From positions 1 to 33,269 of the IMG/VR virus record IMGVR_UViG_3300028025_002126: a DNA stretch of 33,269 nt, one strand, 5' to 3'. The notes under the pieces are model-generated. The model was not told the origin of the DNA. It saw nothing but the letters and a program-made list of their open reading frames with translations, and made no database searches. The stretch is from a virus. The position numbers were made by a program, and so were the translations under genes. Numbering within the stretch: the first letter of the stretch is position 1; every line of letters starts with the position of its first letter. Below, one piece after another: positions 24,398 to 31,514 of the stretch.

Positions 24398-24739
24398 ATG
24401 AAATTAGTAACTCCACAAACTGTTCAAGCAGTATATGAGATGTTGATTTGTCTGCCACCTTTTAATCGGTGGAATCTACCACCATCTAAACAAGTGGGAT
24501 TTGAAGTCCATAAAGATCCTACCTGCTTGGGTGAATACGAGCCAGAACCCCATGTCATCAGAATCTCTGAGGCTAAGAATGGGCATCTGGATACTGTTGT
24601 AAAAACCGTAGCCCATGAAATTATCCATATGAGGCTATACCTAAAGGGTAGCAAGAACTGGGACAAGCATGACAACCAGTTCAATGAGCTATCGCATAAG
24701 ATTGCTATTACTTTAGGATTTGACCCCAAGGAACTGTAA
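24398..24739 (+). CDS. SprT-like zinc metallopeptidase
   Basis: This short 113-residue protein contains the zinc-binding motif HEIIH (73-77) in VVKTVAHEIIHMRL, preceded by HVIRISEAKN and followed by a second His-containing helix (WDKHDNQFNELSHKI). This is the SprT/Wss1-like minimal protease fold that many phages encode; a role in protein processing or DNA-protein crosslink cleavage is family-level inference. No zinc ribbon is seen. It lies 20 bases after the lysozyme, and its stop overlaps the next start. Confidence 0.82.
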   Translation: MKLVTPQTVQAVYEMLICLPPFNRWNLPPSKQVGFEVHKDPTCLGEYEPEPHVIRISEAKNGHLDTVVKTVAHEIIHMRLYLKGSKNWDKHDNQFNELSHKIAITLGFDPKEL

Positions 24740-25755
24740 TGACTAAAGAATCGTGTAATCAAGTAGAGTTTATAAGATTATTTAAAGAATTAGGTTCTCC
24801 CCAAGCTGTTGCTGATTATCTCAATATACAAGTTAGAAGTGTGTATCGAAGAAGAAAAGATTTAGCTGCAAAAGGTATTTTGCTAGAGACTACTAATCAA
24901 ATGGGCAATACAGTCAAATATGACAAAGAGACTTTGCAGATAAAAGTTAAAGAAAGAATCCAACAAGCCCATCACAATGTCCGCAGAGGCATTGCAATGG
25001 AAAAGGGCAGAGTCATTGTCTTTAGTGATGCCCATATTATTCCTGATTACAACACTACTGCTTCAAGAGCTTTACTAGAGTGCATCAAAGAGTTCAAGCC
25101 AGAGGTTATTGTTTGTAATGGTGATGCCTTTGATGGTCAAAGACTAAGCAGATTCCCAAGAGTGGGATTTGACCAAACATTCACAGTTAAGCAAGAGCTA
25201 GATGCTTGTGTTGAATATCTGACTGAAGTTGAGAAAGCATCAACATTCAAGTCTAATCTTATTTGGACTCTTGGCAACCATGATATGCGCTTTGAGTCTA
25301 TGCTTGCTAATAGCTCGGCTCATAACTACGAGGGCATTAAAGGATTTACTCTTAAAGACCACTTCCCATTGTGGCAGTCTTGTTGGTCATACTGGATCAA
25401 TGACAATACACAGATTAAACACAGACATAAGGGCGGTTATAATGCTGGTCGAGCCAATGTCCAAGCAAGCTCTGTGCATACTGTTACAGGTCACACCCAT
25501 GTCTTAACTGTTCATCCATTCACTACCTTAAACCCAGCATTTACTATGGGAACTATTTATGGTGTGCAAACAGGCTGTTTAGCCAATCCTTATGGTCAGC
25601 AGTTTAGCTATATGGAAGATTCAGCCAGAGATCATAGAAGCGGTTTTGCCATGCTTACCTATGAAAGAGGACAACTTCTACCACCTGAGTTAATTCAAGT
25701 CTGGGATGAGGGTGCTGGTGAAGTTACTTTCCGAGGGAAAATCTGGACTGTTTAA
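24739..25755 (+). CDS. Metallophosphoesterase with N-terminal HTH
   Basis: This 338-residue protein has a helix-turn-helix at 8-45 (SPQAVADYLNIQVRSVYRRR). From about 90 a calcineurin-like phosphoesterase carries the metal ligands SDAH (96-99), GDAFDG (128-133), GNHD (179-182) and GHTH (251-254). The complete set suggests an active phosphatase or nuclease acting on DNA or nucleotides. The HTH could recruit it to DNA. It is the last rightward gene before the strand switch. HTH fusions of this type occur in phages; the substrate is unknown. Confidence 0.87.
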   Translation: MTKESCNQVEFIRLFKELGSPQAVADYLNIQVRSVYRRRKDLAAKGILLETTNQMGNTVKYDKETLQIKVKERIQQAHHNVRRGIAMEKGRVIVFSDAHIIPDYNTTASRALLECIKEFKPEVIVCNGDAFDGQRLSRFPRVGFDQTFTVKQELDACVEYLTEVEKASTFKSNLIWTLGNHDMRFESMLANSSAHNYEGIKGFTLKDHFPLWQSCWSYWINDNTQIKHRHKGGYNAGRANVQASSVHTVTGHTHVLTVHPFTTLNPAFTMGTIYGVQTGCLANPYGQQFSYMEDSARDHRSGFAMLTYERGQLLPPELIQVWDEGAGEVTFRGKIWTV

Positions 25756-27631: not shown

Positions 27632-27868
27632 TTAGAATGGGACATCATCTGCTAGTGGAGCTGCTGAAGGGTTTTGTCCTACTTCTCGCTTCTCAATATC
27701 CGCAAAGTAAATCCACCCATCAAAAGGCACAGGCAAAGATTCAATCTTTAGCATCTCACCTTTTTGAGTTTCCAATAAAACACCTACATTGACATAGCGA
27801 GTTTTTTCTTCACCTTGCTTGTTTGTGTAAGTACCTGCTTTAGCTTTTAGTTGTTTCTTGACTGCCAT
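27632..27868 (-). CDS. SSB-like OB-fold protein (78 aa)
   Basis: The 78-residue protein is a small beta-rich domain: basic start (AVKKQLKAKAGTYTNKQGEE), strand KTRYVNVGVLLET, then MLKIESLPVPFDGWIYFADI. It ends in the acidic tip ADDVPF, which resembles the DDDIPF tail of single-stranded DNA-binding proteins. Length is short for a canonical SSB. It sits downstream of the exonuclease (29-base overlap) and the annealing protein, as expected for a recombination set. Role is inferred. Confidence 0.7.
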   Translation of the reverse strand: MAVKKQLKAKAGTYTNKQGEEKTRYVNVGVLLETQKGEMLKIESLPVPFDGWIYFADIEKREVGQNPSAAPLADDVPF

Positions 27869-28469
27869 CTTTTAAACCTTTCAATTTATTTACTGTTTCT
27901 TCTACTTCATTTAAAAATGCTACTACTTCTTCTTCGAGATTTGCAATATATTCATCGTCTCGATTTACTCGGACAACAAACAACTGCAAATCCTCTGGAA
28001 GCCTTGGGTCGAAAGATACAAAGTCACACCATTGGCGGTTCATCACAGCCATCTGAGTTTGCATCTGAGGAATATATTTAGTCGGAGCTTTGCCACTCAA
28101 TAGAGTAGAAAGATGAGTTTTAGAATTGGGACACTTAATTTCGATAAGCCCATCTTCTCCAATAACACCATCAGGAGAGCAGCCAAAATTAGCAATGGTA
28201 GGATGGTCAATAAACCCCAGCTCATCCACAAGATTAGATGACTGAGCTTCATAAGCCATTCTCGCTTGAGGCTCTGTTTCAGTTCCCCATTGCATAGCTT
28301 CATTCTGATAGAACTCCTGTTGCTTGCCAGTAAGTCTTTCGAGAACTAGGTCTGTCAAATAATCTGATCTAGTGGCTGAGTCCTTCTTAGCCAAGACTGC
28401 TGCAACCTTACTAGCAGTTACCTTGCCTAATCTGGCTGCGAACCATTCTTCTGTTCTTTGTTCCATCAT
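27840..28469 (-). CDS. YqaJ/lambda-Exo-type exonuclease
   Basis: The 209-residue protein has the YqaJ recombinase order: RTEEWFAARLGKVTASKVAA (5-24), WGTETEPQARMAYE (61-74), CSPDG (97-101) with catalytic Asp100, and LIEIKCP (108-114) with Glu110 and Lys112, then a Gln-containing helix (YIPQMQTQMAV). This is the alkaline exonuclease that resects double-strand ends to give 3' tails. The partner annealing protein (ERF) is nearby at 28886. Start ATG 28469 directly follows a second ATG 3 bases downstream. Confidence 0.92.
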   Translation of the reverse strand: MMEQRTEEWFAARLGKVTASKVAAVLAKKDSATRSDYLTDLVLERLTGKQQEFYQNEAMQWGTETEPQARMAYEAQSSNLVDELGFIDHPTIANFGCSPDGVIGEDGLIEIKCPNSKTHLSTLLSGKAPTKYIPQMQTQMAVMNRQWCDFVSFDPRLPEDLQLFVVRVNRDDEYIANLEEEVVAFLNEVEETVNKLKGLKDGSQETTKS

Positions 28470-28552
28470 CTACCCCCTAACCAAAGGATTGCACCTACAA
28501 AGGCTAACCCTGCTAAAAAACCTAATAAAAGGACAAGAATTATAGTAATCAT
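28466..28552 (-). CDS. Tiny transmembrane peptide (28 aa)
   Basis: The frame ATG 28552 to TGA 28466 encodes 28 residues, nearly all hydrophobic: MITIILVLLLGFLAGLAFVG, then AILWLGGR. It is one transmembrane helix. Both ends overlap neighbours in ATGA fashion (upstream stop at 28549-28551, exonuclease start at 28467-28469). The arrangement supports a real gene; function unknown. Confidence 0.6.
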   Translation of the reverse strand: MITIILVLLLGFLAGLAFVGAILWLGGR

Positions 28553-28731
28553 TTTACCTCTGACATCTCTTGAAGAACAAGGGATAAATCGTCTGCAAAT
28601 TTGCTACAGTTCTTGGCTGTCTTATTTGCCATAGACCAGTCACCTGCTAGACAGTAGTGGTGCAATACCTTTACTTCTGCCATTAGGTCAATCCAGATAC
28701 CTGAGTAGTCTTTTGTGTCATCCATCTTCAT
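28549..28731 (-). CDS. Hypothetical protein (60 aa)
   Basis: ATG 28731 is preferred over the longer 28770 start because it forms ATGA with the upstream 53-residue gene and has GGAG upstream. The 60 residues begin MKMDDTKDYSGIWIDLMAEV and continue as charged helices (SKFADDLSLVLQEMSEVK). No family recognised. It lies between ERF and exonuclease genes, which suggests an accessory to recombination or regulation. Confidence 0.6.
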   Translation of the reverse strand: MKMDDTKDYSGIWIDLMAEVKVLHHYCLAGDWSMANKTAKNCSKFADDLSLVLQEMSEVK

Positions 28732-28889
28732 TGCTCGTTTCTCCATGCTAAGTGTTTGTAAGTCTGCCATTTTTCTTGAAATCTTTTATCTTGACTAGGT
28801 GGAGTCCATCCTAATCTTTTTAGTGTTTCCACAATATTTGTCTTAGCTGCTGGAATATATGGCTTATCAATATTATCTAAATGACTCAT
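28728..28889 (-). CDS. Small hypothetical protein (53 aa)
   Basis: The frame ATG 28889 to TGA 28728 encodes 53 residues beginning MSHLDNIDKPYIPAAKTNIV, with a LKRLGWTPPSQDKRFQEKWQ block and a basic tail. It fills the gap between ERF and the next gene with ATGA overlaps at both ends. The LGWxPPS segment recalls phage proteins of unknown role. Function not assigned. Confidence 0.6.
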   Translation of the reverse strand: MSHLDNIDKPYIPAAKTNIVETLKRLGWTPPSQDKRFQEKWQTYKHLAWRNEQ

Positions 28890-29419
28890 GCTAATTGTGC
28901 CTTTCTATCTTCTTTAGCTTTGTTGATCCTGACTAGAGCTGCCTTGTCTTTGCTTGCTACCTTGTATCCATGAGCAAAGTTCTTTTTAAGTTCTTCCATA
29001 TCCTTTGACAAGATAATCATTTCTTCTAGCTCTACAACATCAACTACTGGCTGGCTAGAGTCCAAGGCATCATGCTCAACAATCTCCATTGCTGTAACCC
29101 ATAAGTATCTGCGAGTATATGTCTCTACAGCACCAAGGTTTTGAATTGGATGGCAGCCCTTTAATTGAGCATCAGCCATTGGGCTAGTAATCTCAATCTT
29201 TGATCCATCATCAACAGACACAATTGTTAGTGTTGCTAATTCAGATCCAAAGCTAATAACACCACACAAACCTACTTTATCAAAGATGCTGTTGATAGTA
29301 GGCAAAAAGTCACCAAGCTCAAAATACTTGTAGCCAGCAAACTTATTGTGACCAGACTTTGTAAGCTCTGTGCCTTGTAGCTCAAGACGAGCCTTATTTA
29401 ACTTCTGATAAACATTCAT
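28886..29419 (-). CDS. erf: ERF-family single-strand annealing protein
   Basis: This 177-residue protein has the ERF core: VYQKLNKARLELQGTELTKS (3-22), then NKFAGYKYFELGDFLPTINS (25-44). LGAVETYTRRYLWVTAMEIV (about 96-115) carries the strongest family block. The C-terminal Lys/Glu-rich helix (about 140-177) is typical. ERF proteins anneal complementary single strands and, with the exonuclease at 27840 and SSB-like protein, mediate recombination and genome circularisation. AGGAGAAATAA precedes ATG 29419. It overlaps the following small gene. Confidence 0.9.
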   Translation of the reverse strand: MNVYQKLNKARLELQGTELTKSGHNKFAGYKYFELGDFLPTINSIFDKVGLCGVISFGSELATLTIVSVDDGSKIEITSPMADAQLKGCHPIQNLGAVETYTRRYLWVTAMEIVEHDALDSSQPVVDVVELEEMIILSKDMEELKKNFAHGYKVASKDKAALVRINKAKEDRKAQLA

Positions 29420-30393: not shown

Positions 30394-30669
30394 ATGCGAG
30401 CAAAAAGAGTTGATATTAATCAGAAAGCCATAGTCGAACACCTAAGAGCTATGGGGATGTCTGTATTCCATCTGCACGAAGTCGGCAAGGGCTGTCCAGA
30501 TCTCTTGTGTGGCATTAATGGTCAGACCTACCTTATTGAAGTCAAGCGAGATGATAAGGCATCATTCACATCTGCGCAGCTAGAGTTCCAAAGGACTTGG
30601 CAAGGATCTCCAGTTGTAAGAATAAATAATCCACAAGAAGCTATTGATTTTGTAAAAAATATGGTTTAA
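30394..30669 (+). CDS. VRR-NUC domain nuclease
   Basis: The 91-residue protein is a minimal VRR-NUC (PD-(D/E)XK) domain: HLHEVGKGCPDLLCG (26-40) with Asp36, LIEVK (47-51) with Glu49 and Lys51, and FTSAQLEFQRTW with Gln62, then RINNPQEAIDFVKNM. Phage VRR-NUC proteins of this size act as structure-specific DNA nucleases, possibly Holliday junction-like cleavage. ATG 30394 has no ribosome site and may be leaderless or weakly translated. First gene of the rightward early unit. Confidence 0.88.
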   Translation: MRAKRVDINQKAIVEHLRAMGMSVFHLHEVGKGCPDLLCGINGQTYLIEVKRDDKASFTSAQLEFQRTWQGSPVVRINNPQEAIDFVKNMV

Positions 30670-30758
30670 TCTAATTACTGGCTAGGTTCGCTACCGAAAA
30701 GTGGACTCCTTCACCCACCTGCCAGTTCCTTATAAGTGAAGGCTTTTGAAGGAAAGCT
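30670..30758 (+). ncRNA. Structured 5' leader with predicted pseudoknot
   Basis: By hand pairing: ACTGGC (30677-30682) with GCCAGT (30721-30726) encloses two small hairpins, GGT/ACC (30685-30687 with 30693-30695) and GTGG/CCAC (30701-30704 with 30715-30718). CCTTCAC in the second hairpin loop (30708-30714) pairs with GTGAAGG (30736-30742), giving a pseudoknot. CCTTCA can instead pair with TGAAGG (30747-30752), which contains the ribosome site of the replication gene, ATG 30759. It is unusually G/C-rich for a gap in this genome. Not matched to a known class. Confidence 0.5.
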
Positions 30759-31514
30759 ATGTATTACTACAAATTCAATATTGCCGATTGGCATCTCGCA
30801 ACAAGTCATCTAAGTCTAGAAGAAGAAGCGATCTACTTTAGGCTCATAAATTATTATTACGACACAGAACAAGCTATCCCAGAAGAAACCCAGTCGGTTA
30901 TTAGGCGGTTAAGACTCGGTTCTTACTCGGAAATTGTTGGGATTATTCTCAAAGAATTTTTTACTTTGGAATCAGATGGATGGCATCATAAGCGCTGTGA
31001 TGATGAGATTTCTCAGTACCATGACAAAGCAGAAGTCAATCAGGTAAACGGTAAGAAGGGTGGTAGACCTAAGAAAACCCAATCGGTTTCCAAAGATAAC
31101 CCAGACATAACCTTAACCAAGAACCATAAACCATTAACCATAAACCATAGTATAGATGTCGCTAAAGCTCCCAAAGCCAAAAGATTGTCTTTAGAAGAAC
31201 TGCCAAAAGAATGGGAAGATTTTTGCAAGAAGGAAAGATCAGACCTAAAACCTTTGAATGTCTGGAATCAATTTAAAGACTATTGGATCGCTCAAGGTGG
31301 ACAGAAGGGTACTAAGCTGGACTGGTTCGCAACTTGGAGAAACTGGGTTAGAAGCCAGAGAGTAGAATCTGTAAGAACAATTGATAAGCCTACAATCCAA
31401 TGGCATCAGACTCTAGGCGGTGTTATGGCAAAAGGTAAGGAGCTAGGCATTGAACCAAAAGCAGGTGAAACAGAAGGGCAGTACCGACAAAGACTTATTT
31501 CAGCAGGAGCATAG
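30759..31514 (+). CDS. DUF1376 replication protein
   Basis: The 251-residue protein begins with a DUF1376 domain (YYYKFNIADWHLATSHLSLE, then YFRLINYYYDTEQAIPEE), common in phage replisome-organiser proteins. A linker with Lys/Asn and NGKKGGRPKK follows, then a C-terminal block LPKEWEDFCKKERSDLKPLN with FKDYWIAQGGQKGTKLDWFA, seen in related phage proteins. It likely binds the phage origin and recruits host helicase, but no helicase-loader partner is visible. GAAGGAAAG upstream is an excellent ribosome site, lying in the structured leader. Confidence 0.83.
   Translation: MYYYKFNIADWHLATSHLSLEEEAIYFRLINYYYDTEQAIPEETQSVIRRLRLGSYSEIVGIILKEFFTLESDGWHHKRCDDEISQYHDKAEVNQVNGKKGGRPKKTQSVSKDNPDITLTKNHKPLTINHSIDVAKAPKAKRLSLEELPKEWEDFCKKERSDLKPLNVWNQFKDYWIAQGGQKGTKLDWFATWRNWVRSQRVESVRTIDKPTIQWHQTLGGVMAKGKELGIEPKAGETEGQYRQRLISAGA

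Follow-up and report, generated by a model that had tools for sequence, protein, structure and literature searches.

The leader preceding the DUF1376 gene of the viral contig analysed here (IMG/VR record IMGVR_UViG_3300028025_002126; the whole stretch of 33,269 nucleotides is referred to as the window) appears to be an intercistronic, cis-acting translational switch of the int-alpA RNA class, in which a single loop, L3, would choose between two downstream partner strands, copy 1 and copy 2; a probability of about 0.74 is assigned to this reading. Comparison of sequences supports the fold, both pairings, the competition for L3, an additional hairpin (P4) and the position before a start codon. 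The original prediction, that two rival pairings would make the start of the DUF1376 gene accessible or inaccessible, is supported by the comparative evidence for both pairings, by their mutual exclusion and by the cis position. The parts of the element and its neighbouring genes are as follows:

30394..30669, + strand: upstream ORF, 91 aa, endonuclease-like (phrog_93)
30675..30742, + strand: int-alpA RNA (RF02996), three-way junction and first pairing partner (cmscan)
30677..30682, + strand: P1 5' strand ACUGGC, partner 30721-30726 (sequence; covariation in relatives)
30683..30684, + strand: junction J12, UA (conserved in relatives)
30685..30695, + strand: P2 hairpin GGU-UCGCU-ACC (covariation in relatives)
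30696..30700, + strand: junction J23, GAAAA (conserved in relatives)
30701..30718, + strand: P3 hairpin GUGG-L3-CCAC (covariation in relatives)
30705..30714, + strand: L3 loop ACUCCUUCAC, the strand common to both competing pairings (swap tests, pair counts)
30719..30720, + strand: junction J31, CU (conserved in relatives)
30721..30726, + strand: P1 3' strand GCCAGU (sequence; covariation in relatives)
30736..30742, + strand: copy 1, GUGAAGG, partner L3 30708-30714, pseudoknot of 7 bp (pair counts, swap tests)
30742..30757, + strand: P4 hairpin GCUUU-UGAAGG-AAAGC around the Shine-Dalgarno sequence (folding and strand-swap test in relatives)
30747..30753, + strand: copy 2, UGAAGGA, alternative partner L3 30707-30713, 7 bp (pair counts, swap tests)
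30749..30753, + strand: Shine-Dalgarno sequence AAGGA, inside copy 2 and P4, 5 nt to the start codon
30759..31514, + strand: downstream gene, DUF1376/phage primosomal-protein-like, 251 aa, AUG at 30759

The 6-bp outer stem (P1, 30677-30682 with 30721-30726) and the two inner hairpins were found where they had been predicted, as was the 7-bp pairing of the second hairpin loop with GTGAAGG at 30736-30742. The alternative pairing of the loop with TGAAGG at the ribosome site is also real, its length being 7 bp (UGAAGGA, 30747-30753) and not 6. The P4 hairpin at the ribosome-binding site, the first base of which (30742) belongs to copy 1 as well, and the Rfam class of the element had both been missed. 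The stop codon of the 91-aa ORF (30667-30669) lies 5 nt from the Rfam match and 7 nt from the first P1 pair, and the 251-aa product of the downstream gene matches PF07120 (E 2.5e-23) and the primosomal protein phrog_3992 (E 1.3e-39). Elsewhere in the window, positions 24739-25755 encode a protein with a calcineurin-like phosphoesterase domain, the N-terminus of which weakly matches a helix-turn-helix, and positions 27840-29419 on the minus strand—opposite to the DUF1376 gene—encode a YqaJ-type exonuclease and an ERF single-strand annealing protein.

Concerning the class of the RNA, the earlier failure to match it to a known one has to be corrected, since the Rfam search identified positions 30675-30742 as the int-alpA RNA RF02996, with a score of 46.3 bits, the curated threshold being 35.8 (E 8.6e-9; cmscan, full length 1-71). 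This is the sole Rfam match within the window, where the covariance models of the C4 antisense RNA (RF01695) and PK-repZ gave no match. The three-way junction, its CUAG / CGAAAAG / CUG core seen in the model alignment and the AAGG-type tail are common to the class and the window element. The Rfam model, however, stops at copy 1 and does not extend to P4, copy 2 or the start codon; its Rfam type is 'Gene; sRNA', with no function assigned to the class. The int-alpA RNA was reportedly described by Weinberg and colleagues in 2017. A literature search found it named for Shiga-toxin-producing Escherichia coli genomes, its function not being given, and found no citation of the identifier RF02996. The members from E. 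coli have an integrase upstream and an ORF and a helix-turn-helix gene downstream; in the window, the neighbours are the nuclease-like ORF and the DUF1376 gene instead of the int and alpA from which the class name originates, a difference of context that does not define membership. With respect to the Rfam model and the searched literature, the second half with P4, copy 2 and the start codon is new, as are the competition and the indications of a cis role, while the pseudoknot may already be drawn in the 2017 description. A hammerhead-like ribozyme, brought to mind by the GAAA, was dropped due to the absence of the CUGANGA strand, which is part of the hammerhead core.

The folding energy of the window leader taken by itself is ordinary (z = -1.16; 20 of 200 shuffles fold equally well), and the caution that pairings of this kind could arise by chance was therefore apt. 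Covariation, named at the outset as the key test, was found for the stems as well as for both pairings of L3. The stems were analysed in 62 distinct relatives found by the covariance model or by protein similarity, some of them also carrying the pattern used for scanning; 93.8% of the cells of P1, P2 and P3 are paired and all 15 pairs have changed on both sides, figures somewhat favoured by the fitting of the alignment to the structure. None of 500 shuffles matched this result and the pairing collapsed after a slide of one column. Taken separately, P1 is paired in 92.1% of cells (8/8 pairs with double changes), P2 in 94.6% (3/3) and P3 in 96.6% (4/4). The joints are almost unchanging, J12 being UA in 61 of 63 relatives, J23 beginning with GAA in 62 and reading GAAAA in 48 of them, and J31 being CU in 50 and UU in seven. 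The covariation shows the leader to be a genuine folded RNA that has been conserved in evolution, and the near-invariant joints UA / GAA(AA) / CU suggest a common host-encoded partner, either a small molecule or a protein.

The loop L3, in contrast to the joints, is highly diverse, with about 50 different sequences, and each of them fits the two copies of its own element much better than those of other elements. This was seen in swap tests, in which the tails were exchanged among 123 non-redundant elements having a start codon 15-60 nt downstream. The mean longest Watson-Crick run between L3 and its own copy-1 region was 5.76 versus 3.39 ± 0.09 after swapping (n = 123), and between L3 and the region past copy 1 it was 5.16 versus 3.63 ± 0.09. 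The match past copy 1 persisted both with those loops that do not resemble a Shine-Dalgarno partner (5.04 versus 3.52 ± 0.14) and with just one element per distinct L3 (5.16 versus 3.39 ± 0.13); conservation of copy 2 purely as a Shine-Dalgarno sequence was rejected as an explanation, given that loops lacking complementarity to such a sequence also match. The excess of own over swapped matches was also present among the DUF1376 leaders taken separately. In a separately found set, a few rows of which come from genomes also reached by the pattern scan, the own and swapped values were 5.45 and 3.60 for copy 1, and 5.13 and 3.89 for copy 2; a junction-only model (R1) was built, which frees the statistics of the tail from selection on the tail.

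Counted per position, with the loop numbered from its 3' end, Watson-Crick pairing with copy 1 reaches 93-99% at L3 positions 0-4, and that with copy 2 reaches 95-100% at positions 2-4, all four pair types being used in either case. In rows of equal spacing, L3 and copy 1 are 99.2% paired in a set of 22 rows, four pairs having double changes; L3 and copy 2 are 88.2% paired, with compensatory changes in four of five pairs. These rows were picked by best register, so that the percentages are inflated, a bias which the swap tests do not have; in shuffle and slide controls the pair counts of both helices collapsed when slid. Another set, of 24 rows, gave 94.9% pairing of L3 with copy 1. The two helices usually share four to six bases of L3 and must, therefore, be mutually exclusive. 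Their pairing energies lie close together, the medians being -7.4 kcal/mol for copy 1 and -6.7 kcal/mol for copy 2, and the respective values in the window -9.6 and -9.8 kcal/mol. It should be noted that some elements have no clear copy 2 or one of 4 bp only (e.g. L024 and L339), and that the L3 bases located just past the copy-1 helix agreed with copy 2 in 39% versus 31% (p about 0.04), a difference not significant with wobble pairs included. The resemblance of copy 2 to copy 1 could in principle have a cause other than pairing with L3.

The P4 hairpin, absent from the Rfam model, holds copy 2. Its region folds in the relatives with -4.9 kcal/mol versus -2.2 kcal/mol when shuffled, and each of its strands fits its own partner better than a swapped one (7.75 versus 5.34 ± 0.20). 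Of 93 cases, 88 have the Shine-Dalgarno sequence within P4 and 69 have it overlapping copy 2; its usual distance from the start codon in the relatives is 4-9 nt. An ATG that opens an ORF of 50 codons or more is found 20-55 nt past P1 in 83% of 191 elements, whereas random positions gave 18% and the opposite strand 6%, and the annotated coding sequences start near the expected spot in most of the inspected named phages and E. coli elements. On the other side, P1 is preceded at a distance of 0-29 nt by the end of a same-strand ORF in 71 of 115 cases (62%), the control in equal bins being about 28/345. The element usually fills the gap between two genes of the same strand, and its location between an upstream stop and the next start codon fits a cis element better than the independent sRNA gene of the Rfam typing.

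The switch is proposed to work as follows. The three-way junction would present L3, which, when held in the pseudoknot with copy 1, would leave the ribosome-binding site in the weak P4 hairpin, presumably the open, translated state; when paired with copy 2, it would mask the Shine-Dalgarno sequence of the downstream gene, located in or abutting copy 2, and this would be the closed, blocked state. Since the Shine-Dalgarno sequence is structured in both states, the assignment of ON and OFF is uncertain. Two features characteristic of a riboswitch are present, namely the cis position in the 5' leader and the mutually exclusive pairings, the latter seen by covariation only. Translational riboswitches and protein-binding leaders, such as those of preQ1, SAM-II and the ribosomal proteins S4, S15 and L20, similarly combine an invariant core with an exchange of pairing partners that frees or masks the Shine-Dalgarno sequence; in contrast to them, to our knowledge, no ligand or protein is known for the int-alpA class.

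With regard to the distribution, the search of viral contigs with the DUF1376 protein yielded 29 loci, nine of them above the RF02996 cut-off, and several further ones share the architecture with different loop sequences. Pattern scans that covered viral contigs and a single genome from each species gave 197 distinct copies, and RF02996 was found in 36 of 274 sampled genomes of the proteobacterial class to which Stutzerimonas belongs, the 14 control genomes having none. The RNA occurs in the named phages and prophages Tyrion, BIS08P22 and GF-2 and in integrative elements of E. coli, one of which, in E. coli 2012EL-2448 (L284:4568-5273), also bears isrK together with two antisense RNAs of the C4 type. 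The Acinetobacter phage Ab105-2phi (L283:3001-3097) carries a divergent form that scores below the Rfam cut-off; this form has a GAAA joint and a much longer P3 and precedes a Rha-family gene. Vibrio phages carry the element too, the one inspected scoring below the cut-off; in Vibrio phage 1.198.A (L287:3001-3698), the element and one gene lie opposite in strand to all their neighbours, in the manner of an inserted moron. One viral contig (L132) possesses two elements, with the loops ATTCATCAC and CTCCTCA, before two different genes (ORF starts 938 and 2708).

The genes behind the element have no common pathway. Among 61 mostly viral cases there are 25 DUF1376 genes and nine HNH endonucleases, as well as DUF927 and DnaT, whereas the chromosomal ones cover DUF6387, HNH, Rha, Ant-like proteins, transcription regulators and many of no assigned function. 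The element precedes the DUF1376 gene as predicted, but it is not specific to replication, as HNH, Rha, Ant and many other genes follow it too. The switch seems, moreover, to be optional for the DUF1376 gene, since eight such genes are leaderless (L017-L019, L021, L023, L026, L027 and L030); at these loci the coding sequence seems to reach the start codon, e.g. TTTAAAAAGGACTGAAATG. Genes for homing endonucleases of the HNH/NUMOD/AP2/GIY-YIG type recur right behind the element, the nine HNH cases mentioned above matching HNH_3, as if the two formed a cassette travelling together.

Several other explanations have to be weighed against a cis-acting switch governed by L3. A translation-coupled, ligand-free pseudoknot switch is possible, if tentative: ribosomes ending the upstream gene would hit P1 and reset the fold, so that the downstream gene would be tuned to upstream translation, a scheme that overlaps the preferred explanation and would supply its trigger. 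Leaders of the repZ type are coupled to upstream translation, and those of repZ/repA from plasmids of the IncI complex and IncL/M resemble the window in having a pseudoknot near the ribosome-binding site of a mobile-element replication gene, with upstream translation close by; they differ from the window in its two competing cis partners and in that no opposite-strand antisense RNA was identified there. A precedent for pseudoknot-dependent translation exists in repZ, the translation of which requires a pseudoknot upstream of the ribosome-binding site (PMC8383071). The frequent upstream stop codon close to P1, in the window 5 nt away from the match, agrees with coupling, but any intergenic element in compact phage operons would sit near a stop, some elements come after an oppositely oriented gene (as in Vibrio phage 1.198.A) or a distant one, and the near-invariant junction bases would be left unexplained.

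The element could also be the source of a processed, trans-acting antisense RNA similar to C4 of phages P1 and P7, in which case the excised junction would use L3 to block the copies on other transcripts and thereby provide element-specific immunity or copy control. Found in phages and satellites, C4 is a short RNA with a defined structure that can pair with sites close to a downstream ribosome-binding site, and it acts in trans after processing. The Rfam type, the loops and targets that are diverse between elements and matched within each, as specificity predicts, and the E. coli element shared by C4 RNAs and int-alpA are in line with such a role; the tight spacing of copy 1, just 6-11 nt from P1, favours pairing in cis, and the window element has no match to the C4 model. 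The C4-like antisense RNA is unlikely, and less likely than the cis switch. It is also unlikely that the leader is static, its pseudoknot and P4 fixing mRNA stability or a constant level of translation without any switching; the L3:copy 1 pseudoknot alone would cover much of the covariation, and the two-state behaviour is derived from sequence comparison, but the tracking of L3 by copy 2 across dozens of loops, including those unlike a Shine-Dalgarno partner, would have no explanation. Chance pairings in an ordinary intergenic gap, with which the ordinary single-sequence folding energy would agree, are refuted by the covariation in several sets and by the Rfam match and have a negligible probability.

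Based on the above results, a widespread RNA class hitherto filed as sRNA gains a testable role, that of a cis-acting translational switch whose second half, formed by P4 and copy 2, is newly recognised. If this role is right, many phage replication, antirepressor and homing-endonuclease genes would be governed by one RNA device. A broader and rather doubtful idea is that of an orphan riboswitch-like class in mobile elements across Proteobacteria, the junction of which would sense one host metabolite or protein, while diverging triplets of L3, copy 1 and copy 2 would turn on the genes for replication, antirepressors and homing endonucleases.
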